Positions 13,673-25,606 of a stretch of 32,012 nucleotides of DNA are shown here, in pieces. The stretch covers positions 1 to 32,012 of the forward strand of contig JAJFFL010000266.1 in the NCBI GenBank assembly GCA_021776705.1, read 5' to 3'. Position 1 is the stretch's first letter; each line of letters starts with the position of its first letter. The notes beneath the pieces are model-generated. The model made no database searches. It worked only from the letters and a program-made list of their open reading frames with translations, and had not been told where the DNA came from. The stretch is from Alphaproteobacteria bacterium (GTDB lineage Bacteria > Pseudomonadota > Alphaproteobacteria > Caulobacterales > Maricaulaceae). Made by a program: the position numbers and the translations under genes.

Positions 13673-14207
13673 GCATCGGCTCGAAGAAGGCGAGCGGCGC
13701 GGTGTCGTAGTCGGCGTCGAAGGCGTTTTGGTCGTACTTTTCGCAAAACTCGGCGCAGGCGTCGAAGTGTTCATGGCCGCGGAAGTTCTCGCGCATCTCG
13801 CGGTCCATGCCGAGGTGGTGGAAGAAGTAGTAGCCCTGGAAAATGCCGTGCTGCTGGCAGATCCAGTGGTTCTCCTCCGACACGAACGGCTTCAGGATCG
13901 CCGCCGCGATGTCGGGGTGGTTGTAGCTGCCCAGCGTGTCGCCGATGTCGTGGATCAGCGCCATGACCACGTACTCCTCGTCGCGCCCGTCGCGGTGGGC
14001 GCGCGTCGCGGTCTGCCGGCAGTGCGTCAGCCGATCAACGGGAAAGCCGCCGTAGTCGCCGTCGAGCAGCTTCAGGTGCGCCAGGATGCGGTCCGGCAGC
14101 TGCGCCGCGAACGGGAAAAACTCCGTCGCGATCGTCTTCCAGTCCTGCGCCGAACTCTCGGTCATGGCGGTGAACGCGGCGCGCGGCGCGGCGACGGCGT
14201 CGGACAT
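13611..14207 (-). CDS. HD-domain protein resembling MIOX/PhnZ-type diiron oxygenases
   Basis: A 198-residue soluble HD-fold protein. The metal-binding pattern is complete: His62 in THCRQTA, His86-Asp87 in LIHDIGD, His97 in YNHPD, His120 in QQHGIF and Asp159 in KYDQN. The arrangement LLDGDYGG-PVDRLTH-QTA, with six ligands of the H-HD-H-H-D type, resembles myo-inositol oxygenase and the phosphonate-cleaving PhnZ. Those are HD proteins that use a mixed-valent iron pair to oxidise C-H bonds. It could equally be a phosphohydrolase; the substrate is unknown and no phosphonate or inositol genes are nearby. The ATG at 14207 has AGGAG eight bases upstream, and that site lies in a small predicted hairpin. 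MarC is encoded 57 bp upstream on the same strand. Confidence 0.85.
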   Translation of the reverse strand: MSDAVAAPRAAFTAMTESSAQDWKTIATEFFPFAAQLPDRILAHLKLLDGDYGGFPVDRLTHCRQTATRAHRDGRDEEYVVMALIHDIGDTLGSYNHPDIAAAILKPFVSEENHWICQQHGIFQGYYFFHHLGMDREMRENFRGHEHFDACAEFCEKYDQNAFDADYDTAPLAFFEPMLRRVFAAPKNSIYADASVSE

Positions 14208-14215
14208 CGGCGGGC

Positions 14216-14237
14216 TCCTGTCTCGTTTGTGACAGGA
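14216..14237 (-). promoter_or_regulatory. Hairpin overlapping the ribosome site of the HD-domain gene
   Basis: TCCTGTC at 14216-14222 pairs perfectly with GACAGGA at 14231-14237 across an 8-base loop. On the transcript of the minus strand the 3' arm contains most of the AGGAG ribosome site for the gene starting at 14207. It could limit translation or be chance. Confidence 0.3.
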
Positions 14238-14264
14238 TGAACCTTCAGCCGTTCCGCTTCAATG

Positions 14265-14897
14265 CTAGCCGATCCCGAACGCGCCGCTCACCCCGTCGAT
14301 GATCAATTGCGCCGACAAGGCCGCCAGGATGACGCCGAGGATGCGGGTGATCATGGCGGCGATGGTGTCGCCCATGACGCGCATGATCGGGCCGACGGCC
14401 AGGAACGAGACCAGGCAGATCAGCAAGTTGACGCCGATCGCCGCGAGCACGATCCCTTGTTCCGCAAATGACGCCGTCGAGCCCATGAACAGCATCGCCG
14501 AGGCGATCGTGCCGGGGCCGGCGAGCATCGGAATGCCCATCGGAAAAACGGAGATGTCGACCGGCGCGGCGTGATCGCCCTCCATCAAGGCTTCCGCCCG
14601 GCCTTCGCGCCGCTCGGTGCGCTTTTCAAACAGCATCTCCAGCGCCATCAGGAACAAAAGCACGCCGCCGGCGATGCGGAACGCGTCAAGCGAGACGTGC
14701 AGCTGGCGCAGCAGCCATTCGCCGCCGTAGCCGAACCCCAGGATCACGAAGGTCGCGATGATCACCGACTTGATCGCCATGGTTCGTCGCCAGCGCGGGC
14801 TGGCGCCGTCGGTCAGGCCGCCGAAGATCGGCATCACGCCCGGCGGGTCGATGACGACGAAAAAGGTGACGAAGGCGGAGACGAAAAGCTCGATCAT
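14265..14897 (-). CDS. MarC-family membrane protein
   Basis: A 210-residue integral membrane protein with six predicted helices, of the MarC/UPF0056 family. Family marks are the N-terminal FFVVIDPPGVMPIF and the later SVFPMGIPMLAGPGTIASAM. MarC was once linked to multiple antibiotic resistance, but its transport role is unproven. A charged cytoplasmic loop (EKRTERREGRAEALMEGDH) separates the two halves. The ATG at 14897 begins the first helix; the longer open frame upstream runs through repeat DNA and is not protein-like. The HD-domain gene follows in the same direction. The inverted repeat at 14969-15058 lies upstream. Confidence 0.9.
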   Translation of the reverse strand: MIELFVSAFVTFFVVIDPPGVMPIFGGLTDGASPRWRRTMAIKSVIIATFVILGFGYGGEWLLRQLHVSLDAFRIAGGVLLFLMALEMLFEKRTERREGRAEALMEGDHAAPVDISVFPMGIPMLAGPGTIASAMLFMGSTASFAEQGIVLAAIGVNLLICLVSFLAVGPIMRVMGDTIAAMITRILGVILAALSAQLIIDGVSGAFGIG

Positions 14898-14968
14898 GAG
14901 CCGCCCTTTACTCCGGTTCGGGCGCCGACGCCAACGGCGGAAATGCGGAGGTGGTATGCGGGAATGGT

Positions 14969-15058
14969 GGTCATCCTGAACTGCAGGCGAGCGACCTCGG
15001 GGCGATCGGCCGTTGCGCCGTCTCAAGTCCGCGATTCTTCACGCCGCTCAGAATGACC
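14969..15058. repeat. Interspersed palindromic repeat, about 90 bp
   Basis: The ends GGTCATCCTGA (14969-14979) and TCAGAATGACC (15048-15058) are inverted repeats with one mismatch. The interior contains TCTCAAGTCCGCGATTCTTC, a type of sequence found in scattered 'GTCATCCTGA...' palindromic repeats of alphaproteobacteria. It fills the divergent spacer between marC (minus) and the MFS gene (plus). I see no coding content. Confidence 0.6.
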
Positions 15059-15096
15059 TGATTGGAGGAAGGCGAGCTTCCCGCTACACCGCCGCG

Positions 15097-16308
15097 ATGG
15101 CCGACGCTTTCGCCGCCAAGCCCCGCTCCGTCGCCGCGATCGCGGCGGCGCAGGTGATGGTGCTGGCTTTGTGGTTCGTCTCCAGCGCGGTGGCGACCGA
15201 CCTGGCGGCCGCGGGCGTCTCCGACGCGCAGCTCGCCCGCCTCGCCCTCGCCGTGCAGCTCGGCTTCGCCCTCGCCAGCCTGGCCTCCGCCGGTCTCGGA
15301 TTGCCCGACCGCGTGCCGCCGCGGCGCCTGTTCGCGGCCGGGGCCGTGCTCGGCGCGGCGGCCAACGCCCTGCTCCTGATCCTCGACCCGAGCGGCCCCG
15401 GCGCGGTCGTCGCGCGCGGCCTCGCCGGGGCCGCGATGGCGGCGGTCTATCCGGTCGGCATGAAACTCGCCGCGTCGTGGGCCAAGGGCGACACCGGGCT
15501 GCTCATCGGCCTGCTCGTCGGCGCCCTGACCCTCGGCTCGGCCAGCCCGCACCTGTTCGCCTTCGCCGGCGGCGTCTCCTGGAAGCTCGGGGTCGCGGCC
15601 GCGAGCCTGTCGGCGGTCGCCGGAGCGGGCGTCATCTTCGTCGCCGCCGTCGGGCCGGGCCATAAGCCGGCGGGACGCTTTACGCCGGCGGCGGCGCTCG
15701 ACATCTGGCGCCTGCGCGGGGTGCGGCTGGCGACGCTGGGCTACCTTGGCCACATGTGGGAGCTCTACGCCATGTGGGCGTGGATCGGCGCCTTCCTGGC
15801 CGCCAGCTTCGCCGTCTCCGGCCTCGCCGACGCCGCGGCGGCCGCCAAGCTCGCCGCCTTCACCGTCGTCGGCGCGGGCGCCGCGGGCTGCGTCGCCGCC
15901 GGTTGGCTCGCCGACCGGCTCGGCCGCACCGCCGTCACTTCCGCCGCCATGGCGGTCTCCGGCGCCTGCTGCCTGGCGATCGGCCCGCTGTTCGGCGGCC
16001 CGGTCGCGGCGCTGGTGGCGGTGGCCCTGGTCTGGGGCGTCGCCGTCGTCGCCGACAGCGCGCAGTTCTCGGCCGCCGTCGCCGAGCTCGCCCCGCCGGA
16101 ACGCGTCGGCGCCCTGCTGACGCTGCAAACCGCCGCCGGCTTCCTGCTCACCGCCGTCACCATCCGCCTGGTCCCCGCCTGGGTCGACGCGGTCGGCTGG
16201 GAATGGGCCTTCGCGCCCCTCGCGATCGGCCCGGCGCTCGGCGTCGCGGCGATGCTGCGGCTGCGCGCGGTTCCCGAGAGCGCCGGCCTGGCCGGCGGGC
16301 GGCGGTGA
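15097..16308 (+). CDS. Major facilitator superfamily transporter
   Basis: A 403-residue membrane protein with about twelve hydrophobic helices. GWLADRLGRTAVTS in the second half is the classic MFS loop motif, and VYPVGMKLAASWAKGDTGLL in the first half matches the MFS helix 4-5 region (compare the CynX/NimT-like and 'YbfB-like' groups). The transported substrate cannot be read from sequence. The start is uncertain: I chose the ATG at 15097 (MADAFAAKPRS) because the first helix begins about ten residues later. No close ribosome site is seen, and the longer upstream frame reads through the palindromic repeat. It is alanine-rich and strongly GC-biased. The alpha/beta hydrolase gene follows in the same direction after about 100 bp. 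Confidence 0.88.
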   Translation: MADAFAAKPRSVAAIAAAQVMVLALWFVSSAVATDLAAAGVSDAQLARLALAVQLGFALASLASAGLGLPDRVPPRRLFAAGAVLGAAANALLLILDPSGPGAVVARGLAGAAMAAVYPVGMKLAASWAKGDTGLLIGLLVGALTLGSASPHLFAFAGGVSWKLGVAAASLSAVAGAGVIFVAAVGPGHKPAGRFTPAAALDIWRLRGVRLATLGYLGHMWELYAMWAWIGAFLAASFAVSGLADAAAAAKLAAFTVVGAGAAGCVAAGWLADRLGRTAVTSAAMAVSGACCLAIGPLFGGPVAALVAVALVWGVAVVADSAQFSAAVAELAPPERVGALLTLQTAAGFLLTAVTIRLVPAWVDAVGWEWAFAPLAIGPALGVAAMLRLRAVPESAGLAGGRR

Positions 16309-19492: not shown

Positions 19493-20842
19493 TCACAACA
19501 GCATCGTCTCCGGGTCTTCGATGTAGCGCTTGAAGGCGTTGGTGAACTTCGCCCCGATGGCGCCGTCGACGACCCGGTGGTCGCAGGTCACCGTCACCGA
19601 CATGATCGTCGCCGTCGCCAGCGCCCCGTCCTTGACCACCGGCCGCGCCTCGCCCGCGCCCACCGACATGATCATCCCGTGCGGCTCGTTGAGGATCGAG
19701 GCGAAGTCCTTGATCCCGAACATGCCGAGGTTGGAGAGCGAGAAGGTGCCGCCGGTGTATTCCTCCGGCTTGAGTTTCCGGTCGCGCGCCCGCGCGGCGA
19801 GATCTTTCATCTCCTCGGAAATCCGCCGCAGACCTTTTTCGTCGGCGCGGAAAATGATCGGCGTGATCAGACCGCCGTCGATGGCGACCGCCACGGCGAC
19901 GTCGGCGTGGTGGTGGAACAACAGCCCGTCCGGCGAATAGCTGGCGTTCGAGTCCGGGACCTTTTTCAGCGCCAGCGCCGAGGCGCGAATGAGGAAGTCG
20001 TTGACCGAGATCTTCACCCCGTCGTCGGCGACCTTGGCGTTGAGCTTCTTGCGCAGGTCGAGCAGCGCGTCGAGTTCGACGTCGACCGACAAGGGAAAGT
20101 GCGGCACGTCGCGGAAACTGTCGGTCATCCGCCGGGCGATGGTCTTGCGCATGCCGTCGAGCGGCACGAGATCGTAGGAGCCTTCGGGGATGCCCATGGC
20201 GCGCGGGTCACGCACGGCGGGGACTTGCGCCCGGCCCTGGGCCGGCGCGTCCGACACCGCGATCGCGGTCGTCGCGCCCGGCGTCGCGCCGCCGGCCTTG
20301 GCCGCCTCGACGTCGCGCTTGACGATGCGACCGTGCGGCCCGGAGCCGGAGATCTGGCTGAGGTCTATTCCCGCCGTCTTCGCCAGACGCTTGGCGAGGG
20401 GCGAGGCGCGAAGGCGGCCGTTGAGGGATCCGCCCTCCGAGCGCTTCGCGCCCACCTCCCCCGCAGGCGGGGGAGGAGAACCGCTCGCCGCCGACGCGTC
20501 TTTTCCTCCCCCGCTTGCGGGGGAGGTGTCGGCGAAGCCGACGGAGGGGGGAGCGCCGCCGCCACCGCCGCTCATGCCTTCCAGCGCGCTCTTGTCTTCG
20601 CCCTCCTCCAGCAAGGCGGCGATGACGGCGTTGACCTTCACACCCTCGGCGCCCTCGCCGACGAAGATCTTGCCGACGACGCCTTCGTCGACGGCCTCGA
20701 CCTCCATGGTCGCCTTGTCGGTCTCGATCTCAGCGATGATGTCGCCGGACGACACCGTGTCGCCCTCCTTCACCAGCCACTTGGCGAGCGTGCCTTCCTC
20801 CATGGTCGGCGACAGGGCGGGCATGAGAACTTCGATGGGCAT
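19493..20842 (-). CDS. pdhC: Pyruvate dehydrogenase E2, dihydrolipoamide acetyltransferase, with repeat-derived linker
   Basis: A 449-residue core subunit that moves acetyl groups from lipoyl to CoA. Residues 1-80 are one lipoyl domain with the lipoylated lysine Lys43 in [10 protein letters not shown]. About 146-180 is the peripheral-subunit-binding domain ([15 protein letters not shown] to [11 protein letters not shown]). About 220-449 is the catalytic domain, with His422 and Asp426 in CDHRVVDG. Residues 98-137 of the linker are encoded by a palindromic DNA repeat (20433-20551). The result is an unusual GGGK- and PPPP-containing stretch in place of the normal Ala-Pro-rich hinge, and the frame stays open. 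The ATG at 20842 comes two bases after the stop of the small gene upstream, so translation is likely coupled. The PDH name is secure from the pdhB and pdhA context. Confidence 0.97.
20433..20551. repeat. Palindromic repeat element inside pdhC
   Basis: Two arms of about 45 bases face each other across a short centre. Each has its own hairpin: CCTCCCCCGC/GCGGGGGAGG at 20455-20464/20467-20476, and again at 20505-20514/20517-20526. A GTCGGC-GAA-GCCGAC stem lies at 20528-20542, with a degenerate GAGCGC-TTC-GCGCCC counterpart at 20439-20453. This architecture belongs to the GC-rich 'CCTCCCCCGC' dispersed repeats that are normally intergenic in several alphaproteobacteria. Here it lies wholly within the coding frame of pdhC. 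I saw no second copy in this window. Confidence 0.8.
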
Positions 20843-20844
20843 GG

Positions 20845-21120
20845 CTACAAGCTCTTCGATATGGCAATCGCATCCAGAACGATCCGGCCTTGGTCATTCC
20901 GGCGCATGATTGGATTGGCGTAGCTCGCGATGGCTGCACGCTTTACCGCAGCGAGAACTTCTTCAGACGCAAGTGCTTCTACTTCGCCGTTCACACCCGG
21001 AAATTGGTCTTCGATAACTTCTAAATCGATCGCGAAAACAACCGGCACTTTGTCGTTGTGCCCCTTCAACAGAAGTTGGCCGCTGCTCCAACTCCATTCA
21101 ACGTTTGAGAAGTCGAGCAT
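20845..21120 (-). CDS. Small lower-GC gene between pdhB and pdhC (possibly DUF1488-like)
   Basis: A 91-residue protein, [14 protein letters not shown] to [22 protein letters not shown] followed by a helical [14 protein letters not shown] and a GRIVLDA strand is weakly like DUF1488 proteins, whose function is unknown; this is tentative. By hand count 20881-21120 is about 52-53% GC, clearly below its neighbours. It starts 11 bases after pdhB stops, with a GTGGAAA site, and ends two bases before the pdhC ATG, so it is part of the operon. No membrane segment or signal is visible. Tight spacing and a clean frame argue that it is expressed. The composition suggests later arrival than pdhB and pdhC. 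Confidence 0.78.
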
Positions 21121-21131
21121 AGTTTCCACGA

Positions 21132-22505
<1,374 letters not shown>

Positions 22506-22601: not shown

Positions 22602-23150
22602 TCACCGCTTGCGGAACGCCACGTAGGCGAAAATCAGGCTCCAGACGCCCAAGGCCGCGGCGAAGCGGAACACCGCGGCCACCAGCCCGAGACCCCACTG
22701 CGCGCGGGCGTCGAAAGCCGGCGCGCCGGGCAGGTCGACGTCGAAGATTTCGAGCCCGTCGAACAGCGCCCCCTTGAGCGCCTGGTCGGTCCAGAACGCC
22801 AGCGCCTCCAGCCGCGTCGGCGGCGCGGCGAACGGCGCGAACAAATGGTGCTTGGCGGTCAGCGCATAGGTCGCGCCGGAAAACAGCATGATCAGGATCA
22901 GCGCGAAGACGACGCCGACGGCGACCGAGCCGGCGACCGACGCCTGGCCCCCGGACGGGGCGCGCACGAAATCGAACCGCGCCTTGAGCGCCAGGTACGT
23001 CAGACCGACGAGCACCAGACCGGCGGCGACGTCGAGGCCGACGCCGACGGCGCGTGGGGCCCAGTCGGCCGGCTGCCACAAAATCGCGAGCGACGCCGCG
23101 GCGAGCACCGCGGCGCCGATTCCGAACGTCAGCTCGCGGCCGTGTCCCAT
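22602..23150 (-). CDS. Membrane protein of unknown function
   Basis: A 182-residue protein with about four hydrophobic helices: roughly residues 8-25, 34-54, 72-95 and 150-178. Between the third and fourth is a soluble loop of about 50 residues holding FWTDQALKGALFDGLEIFDV. No family is recognised. An adjacent GTG one codon upstream is the alternative start; the ATG at 23150 has GGGG five bases before it. It starts about 13 bases after the VOC gene stops, so it is in the same transcription unit, and lies just upstream of pdhB. Confidence 0.78.
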   Translation of the reverse strand: MGHGRELTFGIGAAVLAAASLAILWQPADWAPRAVGVGLDVAAGLVLVGLTYLALKARFDFVRAPSGGQASVAGSVAVGVVFALILIMLFSGATYALTAKHHLFAPFAAPPTRLEALAFWTDQALKGALFDGLEIFDVDLPGAPAFDARAQWGLGLVAAVFRFAAALGVWSLIFAYVAFRKR

Positions 23151-23163
23151 CACGCCCCGCCGC

Positions 23164-23550
23164 TCATGCGGCGGCCTCGTCAGGCTGCATCAGGCCGATG
23201 ATGTTGCCCTCGGTGTCGTGCACATAGGCGAGCCAGCCGACGCCGGGGATCGCCATCTTGTGCACGCCGACCTCGCCGTTCATCTCCAGCGCCTTGGCGA
23301 CATAGGCGTCGACGTCGTCGACGTCGCAGGTGCACACCCAGGCGATGACCGGTTCGCCGCCCTTGGGAGCCGCGCCGCGCCGCGGCAGCAGGCCGCCGTC
23401 GATGCCGGGCCCGCCGTCGCCGGTCTTCACGAACCAGTATTGGCCCGGCGGGCCGAACGGCGTGAACGTCCAGCCGAACAGACCTTCGTAAAACGCGATC
23501 GCGCGCGCCGGGTCCTGGGCGTGAATTTCGAAGTGCGTGGGGCGTGGCAT
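23164..23550 (-). CDS. VOC family (glyoxalase/bleomycin resistance-like) protein
   Basis: A 128-residue protein with the paired beta-alpha-beta-beta-beta fold of the vicinal oxygen chelate superfamily. The N-terminus THFEIHAQDPARAIAFYEGLFGW carries the first probable metal ligand (His6) and the FYEGLFGW signature. The C-terminal half has GWLAYVHDTEGNIIGLMQPD, with the expected glutamate in TEGN. Members include glyoxalases, dioxygenases and antibiotic-binding proteins; which one is not visible. The ATG at 23550 fits the family start. It is followed by the four-helix membrane protein gene. Upstream lies a 161-bp palindromic repeat. Confidence 0.9.
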   Translation of the reverse strand: MPRPTHFEIHAQDPARAIAFYEGLFGWTFTPFGPPGQYWFVKTGDGGPGIDGGLLPRRGAAPKGGEPVIAWVCTCDVDDVDAYVAKALEMNGEVGVHKMAIPGVGWLAYVHDTEGNIIGLMQPDEAAA

Positions 23551-23577
23551 GGGACCGTCTTTCGAGTTCCGCTTTCC

Positions 23578-23738
23578 GTCATCCCGCGCGCGCTGCAGCG
23601 CGCAACGCCGCCGCGCAGATGCGGGACCTAGCGAGGTTTGCGACTATCGTCCGACACGGCATGTGAGACAATCGCCAACGTGGGCAGGTCCCGGATCAGC
23701 AGCGCACCGCTTGCGCGCTGCGCAGCATCCGGGATGAC
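23578..23738. repeat. Interspersed palindromic repeat, about 160 bp
   Basis: GTCATCCCG at 23578-23586 is an exact inverted repeat of CGGGATGAC at 23730-23738. Each end also folds on itself: the left around the perfect palindrome GCGCGCTGCAGCGCGC and closing with GCGGGACC, the right from GGTCCCGGAT to ATCCGGGATGAC. This is the layout of dispersed 'GTCATCCCGG...CCGGGATGAC' repeats known from alphaproteobacterial genomes. It occupies nearly the whole spacer between the NTF2-like and VOC genes. Confidence 0.7.
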
Positions 23739-23741
23739 AGG

Positions 23742-24140
23742 TCAGGTGGCGCCCTCGAAAGCCTCCACATGCGAATTCATGCGCTGGGCGAAGTCGATCA
23801 GGGTGTTCAGCGGCCGGATCCAGACTTCGATCCGCGCCATCTTGCCGTCGGCGTCGAGTGTGATGCGGTCGAGCCCGACCAGGGAGCGGCCGCCGACTTC
23901 GCCCTCGAACTCCAGCATCAGCATGTCGCCGTCGATCCACGTCCGGCGGTAGCGGAAGTCGTCGATCGTCGCGATGACGCCGGAAAGAATGTGGATGACG
24001 AGGTCGCGGCCGCGTTTCGGCTTCCACACCACCGGCGAGTTCAGCTCGCAGTCCTCGGCGACGATCGCGCGCAGCTTCTCCGCGTCGCGGGCGTCGACGG
24101 CGGCGTGCCAAGCGTTGAGAAAGGCGCGGGCGTCGGCCAT
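23742..24140 (-). CDS. NTF2/SnoaL-like fold protein
   Basis: A 132-residue protein with the cone-shaped NTF2 fold: an N-terminal helix pair (ARAFLNAWHAAVDARDAEKLRAIVAEDCELNSPVV, quoted here only as a region at residues 4-38), then beta strands with RRTWIDGDMLMLEFEGEVGG and LVGLDRITLDADGKMARIEV. Such proteins are often SnoaL-like cyclases, isomerases or binding proteins; no function can be assigned. It starts 7 bases after the MAPEG gene ends and is in the same direction, so both are probably cotranscribed. The downstream spacer is filled by the palindromic repeat. Confidence 0.85.
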   Translation of the reverse strand: MADARAFLNAWHAAVDARDAEKLRAIVAEDCELNSPVVWKPKRGRDLVIHILSGVIATIDDFRYRRTWIDGDMLMLEFEGEVGGRSLVGLDRITLDADGKMARIEVWIRPLNTLIDFAQRMNSHVEAFEGAT

Positions 24141-24147
24141 CGGATCC

Positions 24148-24537
24148 TCACACCAGCAGGACGAACACGATCATGATCAGAGCCACCGCCCCGACCAGCC
24201 ACGCGATGGTGCGCAGCCAGGGCACGCCGAGCAGGTAGAGGGCGGCGTGGGCGATCCGGGCCCCGAGGTAGATCTGCGCGGCGAGCGCGGTGACGTCGTT
24301 GGCGGCGCCGGAGAGGACAACGGCCAGGATCAGCGGCGCGAACAGCGCCAAACCCTCGATGTGGTTGCGCACGTTGCGGTCGGCGCGGGCGCAGAAACGG
24401 CCCGGATCGGGCAATTGATCGCGCGCGCCGGCCGCGGCCACGATCCCGACCTCCAGCACCCGCACCGTCGCCCCGATCGCAATCACCGCAAACAGCACCA
24501 AGGTGACGTAGACGAGCACGGCGAGTTCGACGGTCAT
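24148..24537 (-). CDS. MAPEG family membrane protein
   Basis: A 129-residue, four-helix membrane protein of the MAPEG family (membrane-associated proteins in eicosanoid and glutathione metabolism). The key stretch is RADRNVRNHIEGLALFAPL at about residues 51-69, the bacterial version of the family's R-A-x-R-x-x-x-N-x-x-E signature, followed by ARIAHAALYLLGVPWLRT. Eukaryotic relatives act on glutathione-linked lipids; bacterial ones are mostly uncharacterised. It starts 25 bases after the pdhA stop and is followed by the NTF2-like gene, forming the first of four genes inserted between pdhA and pdhB. Confidence 0.92.
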   Translation of the reverse strand: MTVELAVLVYVTLVLFAVIAIGATVRVLEVGIVAAAGARDQLPDPGRFCARADRNVRNHIEGLALFAPLILAVVLSGAANDVTALAAQIYLGARIAHAALYLLGVPWLRTIAWLVGAVALIMIVFVLLV

Positions 24538-24562: not shown

Positions 24563-25606
24563 TCAGGCCTCGATGAGAACGTCCGTCCAAAGCTCTTTCG
24601 GGTCCGGCTCCGGGCTGGTCTTGGCGAACTCGACCGCTTCGTTGACCGTCGCCTTCACCCGCTTGTCGATGTCCTTGAGGGCGTCCTCGGTCGCCCAGCC
24701 GGCGGCCAGAAGCCGGGTCTTGCAAAGCTCGATCGGGTCCGACTTGGCGCGCACCGCGTCGACCTCGTCGCGGGTGCGGTACTTGGCCGGGTCCGACATC
24801 GAGTGGCCGCGGTAGCGGTAGGTCTTCATTTCAAGGATGTGCGGGCCTTTGCCGGCGCGCGCGTTCTTCACCGCCCGCCGGCCGGCGTCGCGCACCGCCA
24901 ACACGTCCATGCCGTCGACCTCTTCGCCTTCGATGCCGAACGAAACGCCGCGCTTGTGCAGATGGGTCTCCGACGAGGCGCGCCGGACGCTGGTGCCCAT
25001 GGCGTATTGGTTGTTTTCGATCACGTAGATCACCGGCAGGTCCCAGAGCTTGGCCATGTTGAAGGCCTCGTAGACCTGCCCCTGGTTGGCGGCGCCGTCG
25101 CCGAAATAAGTCAGGCAGACGCGGTCGCCGCCGCGGTACTTGTTGGAGAACGCGAGCCCGGTGCCGATCGGCACCTGCGCCCCGACGATGCCGTGGCCGC
25201 CGAAGAAATTCTTCTCGCGGCTGAACATGTGCATCGACCCGCCCTTGCCCCGCGAGTAGCCGCCGGCGCGTCCGGTCAGCTCGGCCATGACGCCGTTCGG
25301 GTCCATGCCGCAGGCGAGCATGTGGCCGTGGTCTCGGTAGCCGGTGATGACTTGGTCGCCCTCGCCGATCGCCGACTGCATGCCGACGACGACCGCTTCC
25401 TGGCCGATGTAGAGATGGCAAAAGCCGGCGATCAGGCCCATGCCGTAAATCTGGCCCGCTTTCTCCTCGAAGCGCCGGATCAGCAGCATGTCTTCATAGA
25501 AGGTGAGGAGCTCGTCCTTGGACGCGTCGGGCTTTTTCGCCTTCGACGCCGCCGCCGCCTTTTTGGACGAGGACGATTTGTTCGCCGTGGACTTGTTCGC
25601 CGCCAT
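24563..25606 (-). CDS. pdhA: Pyruvate dehydrogenase E1 component alpha subunit
   Basis: A 347-residue thiamine-diphosphate enzyme subunit. The first 30 residues are a lysine-, serine- and alanine-rich extension of low complexity. The fold follows with LLIRRFEEKAGQIYGMG, GFCHLYIGQEAV and GYRDHGHMLACG. The ThDP/Mg motif starts at GDGAANQGQVYEAFNMA and ends at ENNQYAMGTS. The RYRGHSMSDPAKYR loop corresponds to the regulated loop of E1-alpha. It pairs with PdhB (21132-22505), although four other genes now lie between. It follows ftsB, as in many alphaproteobacteria. The ATG at 25606 is preceded by a CGCGC-UUUC-GCGCG hairpin and a GGGAGGGG stretch further upstream. Confidence 0.98.
   Translation of the reverse strand: MAANKSTANKSSSSKKAAAASKAKKPDASKDELLTFYEDMLLIRRFEEKAGQIYGMGLIAGFCHLYIGQEAVVVGMQSAIGEGDQVITGYRDHGHMLACGMDPNGVMAELTGRAGGYSRGKGGSMHMFSREKNFFGGHGIVGAQVPIGTGLAFSNKYRGGDRVCLTYFGDGAANQGQVYEAFNMAKLWDLPVIYVIENNQYAMGTSVRRASSETHLHKRGVSFGIEGEEVDGMDVLAVRDAGRRAVKNARAGKGPHILEMKTYRYRGHSMSDPAKYRTRDEVDAVRAKSDPIELCKTRLLAAGWATEDALKDIDKRVKATVNEAVEFAKTSPEPDPKELWTDVLIEA

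Follow-up and report, generated by a model that had tools for sequence, protein, structure and literature searches.

A low-GC gene with a predicted DUF1488 fold between pdhB and pdhC of an alphaproteobacterium, probably a recently acquired passenger of the pyruvate dehydrogenase operon

The closest described relatives of the gene considered here belong to the DUF1488 family (PF07369), whose hallmark, according to the accessible text of PMC2954204, is a left-handed crossover that joins the last two parallel strands. The family includes the protein of structure 2gpi (Shew_3726) and YrdB of E. coli, a protein of 85 residues for which no function is given in the accessible part of PMC4006907; the available portions of the literature on DUF1488 likewise give none for the family as a whole. 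Mobile DUF1488 genes of unknown role are found in integron cassettes of Xanthomonas (PMC12444791, accessible text). The transfer of genes into operons is the subject of PMC2259305, as far as the available part of that article indicates.

We analyzed a window of 32,012 nt (the whole stretch of DNA under study), taken from a fragmented assembly of 322 contigs that is 92% complete. Its pyruvate dehydrogenase (pdh) region is described in Table 1. The first-pass annotation had reported a small frame of 91 codons between pdhB and pdhC, 11 and 2 bases away from them; both flanking genes were confirmed by Pfam and NCBIfam and the two distances were found again on measurement. The product, read on the minus strand from 21120 to 20845, has 91 residues (MLDFSN...SKSL). 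A weak Shine-Dalgarno-like GTGGA can be seen by eye in the spacer behind pdhB. The start codon is not fixed, since the reading frame continues without a stop in the upstream direction, through pdhB, and an alternative in-frame GTG at 21126-21124 would give a longer N-terminus. As the second spacer is so short, a ribosome site of pdhC, if any, would lie within the last codons of the small gene. Neither a promoter-like nor a terminator-like site was found in 20700-21300, and co-expression with the pdh genes is thus the natural inference. The same interval contains no inverted repeat of at least 12 nt in a general repeat search (as opposed to an attC model), a possible difference from the Xanthomonas cassette genes. 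As a separate observation, a double palindrome resembling the REP type is present at 20429-20552, in the linker region of the pdhC open frame. It is composed of two arms of 52 nt, 83% complementary and 20 nt apart, matches to its core pattern number 4, with 0.03 expected, and the same core occurs in pdh loci of other genomes (L027/L058 and L033/L064), by position also within pdhC.

Table 1. Coordinates of the small gene, its spacers and the surrounding pdh genes and inserts in the window.
Feature	Coordinates	Strand	Remarks	Basis
Small gene, 91-residue predicted DUF1488-fold protein	20845-21120	-	stop included; ATG at 21120	profile and model
Spacer between pdhB stop and small gene	21121-21131	-	11 nt, TCGTGGAAACT	
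Spacer between small-gene stop and pdhC ATG	20843-20844	-	2 nt	
pdhB, E1 beta with N-terminal lipoyl domain	21132-22505	-	457 aa	Pfam, NCBIfam
pdhC, E2 dihydrolipoamide acetyltransferase	19493-20842	-	449 aa	Pfam, NCBIfam
pdhA, E1 alpha	24563-25606	-	347 aa; 2057 nt from pdhB	
All pdhA-pdhB inserts	22602-24537	-	four frames, all with host-like GC3	
MAPEG, pdhA-pdhB insert	24148-24537	-		
SnoaL-like, pdhA-pdhB insert	23742-24140	-		
Glyoxalase-like, pdhA-pdhB insert	23164-23550	-		
183-aa frame, pdhA-pdhB insert	22602-23153	-	without Pfam match	

By itself the open frame is weak evidence for a gene, since 26 of 2000 composition shuffles also left a frame of this length intact. Its status as a protein gene comes from the fold. 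The best and sole Pfam model was DUF1488, with 14.3 bits (E 0.042) against a gathering cut-off of 22 bits. A single-sequence AlphaFold (AF2) model of the protein (pLDDT 68.9) gave 2gpi as its top Foldseek match (E 0.056, prob 0.97, TM 0.56), and VIA-align superposed the two, whose sequences are 11% identical, with Z 9.8 and rmsd 2.0 over 83 of the 91 residues, the next chain reaching Z 3.5. Alignment with hhalign to 15 DUF1488 proteins scored 26.4, a value attained by none of 400 shuffles (best 16.5), and the repeat on two disjoint DUF1488 sets gave 26.3 and 26.8 for shuffle maxima of 16.3 and 15.7; no signal was obtained with an eight-member set of alphaproteobacterial stand-alone DUF1488 proteins (13.9, under a shuffle maximum of 18.0). 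The weak likeness to DUF1488 suspected at first reading is thereby strengthened. The protein resembles 2gpi in length, in strand-helix order and in fold, and the alignment to DUF1488 begins at its first residue. The alignment to 2gpi extends to residue 88, but the hallmark itself falls in the low-confidence tail of the model, where the last 20 residues have a pLDDT of about 30-41 and no strand of at least 3 residues is listed. From model and profiles, the small-gene product is predicted to be a divergent protein with the DUF1488 fold, a small one of the alpha+beta type, rather than a formal member of PF07369. One might still take the frame for a chance opening in foreign or intergenic DNA, without a working gene, given that it is an orphan by sequence and that some shuffles stay open. 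We regard this as very improbable: besides the fold and an alignment that starts at residue 1, GC1 (60.9) exceeds GC2 (35.9) as in coding DNA, and the spacing is operon-like.

To what DUF1488 genes are attached elsewhere was analyzed in 48 loci, distributed as follows: in 5 cases (L051, L052, L116, L118 and L119), an NTP_transf_8 nucleotidyltransferase carries the domain at its C-terminal end, as seen by Pfam for four of them and by BLAST plus an open frame of 471 codons for L116. In 2 cases (L114 and L120), a HipA kinase gene is followed closely by the DUF1488 gene. In 41 cases, neither partner was present. Fusion to NTP_transf_8 and position behind HipA fit a small docking or regulatory domain, and DUF1488 may be a docking module for enzyme partners (HipA, nucleotidyltransferase) if such gene contexts are a guide. 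The enzyme-partner idea has no candidate here, since HipA_C (PF07804) and NTP_transf_8 (PF12281) both gave 0 matches in the source genome, at the 92% completeness of its assembly. No pdh gene was found near DUF1488 in the first 18 loci (3.1-3.3 kb each), in which they differ from the small gene; yrdB of E. coli is, we assume, located near aroE. The same contexts could make the small gene an orphaned partner from a toxin-antitoxin or phage-conflict system, captured alone and now driven by the pdh promoter as a protection against incoming toxins of the HipA or NTP_transf_8 type. The HipA-adjacent and fused copies would agree with this, as would the DUF1488 genes of the Xanthomonas integron cassettes (PMC12444791, accessible text), but the source genome is devoid of both partner domains, PADLOC gave no match, most DUF1488 loci have neither partner and the profile does not prefer the partner-linked subset over the wider set. 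We found no paper naming DUF1488 and HipA jointly, and consider this origin unlikely.

The base composition of the small gene departs strongly from that of its surroundings. Its GC content is 51.8%, close to the 52-53% counted by hand in the first-pass annotation, and it lies well under the neighbouring DNA as was claimed; that annotation put one line at about 42%, and the poorest 46-nt block measured is at 45.7%. The tendency is particularly marked at third codon positions: GC3 is 58.7% in the small gene, compared to 90.8 in pdhA, 93.9 in pdhB (35 points higher), 89.8 in pdhC and 89-92 in the four pdhA-pdhB inserts. Windows of 276 nt over 181,880 unmasked bases of the source genome, a sample that includes the 32,012-nt window and excludes the surroundings of the small gene, have a mean GC of 67.3% (sd 5.0), and a value of 51.8% or less occurs in just 10 of 1926. 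Nine of these ten belong to one stretch of contig L130. That stretch (14077-15456) is the sole longer low-GC stretch among the contigs of the source genome that were sampled.

The distribution of the protein was then considered in overlapping samples of relatives, family, class and phylum. At E<=0.001 the source genome was the sole match in a set of 41 genomes of relatives, and there was no match in the 136 other genomes of the 137-genome family set or in the 397 others of a phylum sample of 398. Looser family matches (E 0.012 to 0.9) were all judged to be chance. In a class sample of 385 genomes, five of the 384 others matched, the best with E 6.3e-4 and the remaining four with values reaching 0.0085; these were also judged to be chance, four lying inside frames of 609-686 codons and the fifth, in G503, in a frame of 161 codons. 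Plasmids, phages and viral contigs gave no match, none of 561 pattern stretches in genome contigs was confirmed, and no donor was found in any of these searches. Nor was a homologue obtained from the PDB sequences, and PHROGs, NCBIfam and PADLOC returned nothing useful. The foreign composition and the absence from all 136 family and 397 phylum-sample genomes support, at the level of sequence, the earlier proposal that the small gene is a recent arrival. No second genome of the same genus appeared among the family-set genomes listed, and the age of the arrival is therefore not bounded from the genus side.

The junction between pdhB and pdhC was compared in 56 genomes, that of the source and 55 relatives (G041 and G002 being left out of the 57 other genomes with a pdhB match). 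The gap is of at least 250 nt in 36 of the 56. In a wider scan of pdhB in named genomes, mostly of more distant alphaproteobacteria, pdhC was in reach in 72 of 80 loci and the gap was of this size in 23 of the 72. As controls, gaps between suc genes were measured in 36 genomes by length alone: at least 250 nt was found in 1/36 for sucA-sucB, 7/34 for sucD-sucA and 12/28 for sucC-sucD, values that include odd pairs which may be alignment artefacts (1580/1569 in L162, 1843/1839 in L166). The idea of a uniquely loose spot is weakened by these figures, as sucC-sucD (p 0.10 in comparison with pdhB-pdhC) and pdhA-pdhB (28/49) are loose as well. Gaps of several hundred nt between sucC and sucD were seen in L151, L153, L154, L163, L167, L168, L174 and others. 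This suggests that core metabolic operons of the order commonly contain inserts.

The first-pass annotation had viewed the small gene as a working operon member, and further as possibly regulating the pyruvate dehydrogenase complex or helping in its assembly. The first part stands as far as the tight spacing goes. On the second, the gene would be retained in the operon for its action on E1 beta or E2. Here the spacing is again an argument, and docking on E2 is conceivable for a DUF1488 protein, given the physical ties of the family to enzymes elsewhere. A conserved tie to the pdh genes was nevertheless not observed: none of the 55 relatives' junctions holds the small gene, and none of the 136 other family genomes has it at E<=0.001. 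Order-wide occurrence at ordinary GC, which would have contradicted the first-pass annotation, is clearly not seen. Tight junctions free of any insert exist (for example gaps of -1 to 14 nt), the slot is otherwise filled by unrelated genes, and the first 18 DUF1488 loci have no pdh gene. As the occupants differ and are unrelated, the junction gives no pointer to a function in the complex. A role as regulator of the complex is thus possible, with no support from these comparisons, and we hold it to be improbable.

To characterize what fills the slot, 60 ORFs were catalogued. The analysis rests on 48 of them; the 12 doubtful ones set aside include three from L068, where at least two were wrongly tiled and the real occupant is a GFA gene seen under L037. 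GFA proteins were identified in 13 loci by BLAST and Pfam, plus one by eye. DUF5076 (PF16826) was present in 9 of the 56 genomes, 5 by Pfam and 4 by BLAST to those. The remainder comprises DUF805 (4 loci), a membrane protein of 137 residues (4 loci), a 2OG-Fe(II) oxygenase and orphans. Like the small gene, DUF5076 is a small protein gene lodged between pdhB and pdhC, and we found no paper naming it; unlike the small gene, it has a host-like GC3 in 8 of 9 cases. An origin of the small gene as a worn-down DUF5076 was rejected (hhalign score 8.0, 1 column). The DUF5076 and DUF1488 profiles scored 19.1 against each other (p 0.008), with single DUF5076 proteins up to 20.9, and a link between the two families was not accepted on that score.

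The 48 occupants fall into two kinds. Shared or otherwise assigned families account for 37, counting L094_2 and L106_4, which are glycosyltransferase-like and PLP decarboxylase-like by eye rather than by Pfam scan; 11 are without Pfam match or wide sharing, including L072_2, which was left out of the Pfam scan. The scan itself covered 19 proteins and the small gene, the rest being assigned by BLAST. In GC3 the 37 are close to pdhB. A GC3 at least 14 points under that of pdhB was found in 9 of the 11 but in only 2 of the 37 (Mann-Whitney on the two classes, p 4e-5, or 1e-4 without the small gene, the related genomes not being independent). Orphan genes are often AT-rich anywhere in a genome, and the comparison is among slot occupants only, so that this result carries a strong caveat. 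The nine low-GC3 orphans all come from the source genome's family, where they occur in eight genera and in 9 of the 32 genomes examined, and lie 14-51 points under pdhB. L070_1 and L077_1 are weakly alike (E 9e-5) and L064_2 has a relative in L068; the others are singletons in the set. The slot gene of L088 (G024) is 50.7 points below its pdhB and that of L102 (G020) 30.6 points, L102_1 being weakly Mrr_N-like (E 0.08). No plasmid match was obtained for L088_1, L070_1 and L102_1, and no phage match for L070_1.

These figures also bear on whether the small gene could be a long-established occupant of the slot whose sequence evolved fast and whose composition drifted, its homologues having been lost from every relative sampled. 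As no other member of the genus appears in the family set, an old lineage-specific gene is conceivable, and low-GC orphans do recur in the slot of other genera. Against this, the GC3 deficit of the small gene far exceeds the mean differences from pdhB of the resident families, -2.9 for GFA and -2.4 for DUF5076, and only 2 of 299 genomes of the order have a DUF1488 above the cut-off (both NTP_transf_8 fusions). Long residence is in our estimation quite unlikely.

We favour, with a little better than even confidence, the reading that the small gene is a real and recently acquired DUF1488-fold gene, a passenger co-expressed with pdh that has its own role and is neither a subunit nor a regulator of the complex. 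Coming from a lower-GC source, it would have settled between the stop of pdhB and the start of pdhC without leaving a visible scar, at a spot which very often accepts small genes in the order. Having no promoter of its own, it would be transcribed and translated together with the pdh genes, and the operon would provide it with steady, growth-linked expression. Its product would be a stand-alone protein-binding module.

A broader proposal, which we put forward tentatively and with less than even confidence, is that the pdhB-pdhC junction in this family, Maricaulis included, may be a recurrent capture site for AT-rich orphans, the essential and steadily expressed operon acting as an expression slot in which newborn or foreign genes are tried out. 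The small gene would be one such arrival, and DUF1488 perhaps a module docking on enzyme partners. For DUF1488, whose structure dates from 2006 and for which the available portions of the literature give no function, the fusions and HipA neighbours offer a functional idea that can be tested. If the slot reading is true, the arrival, loss and replacement of genes could be watched at one junction across dozens of genomes, and with flanks that can always be aligned, the question of orphan-gene expression would become directly testable.
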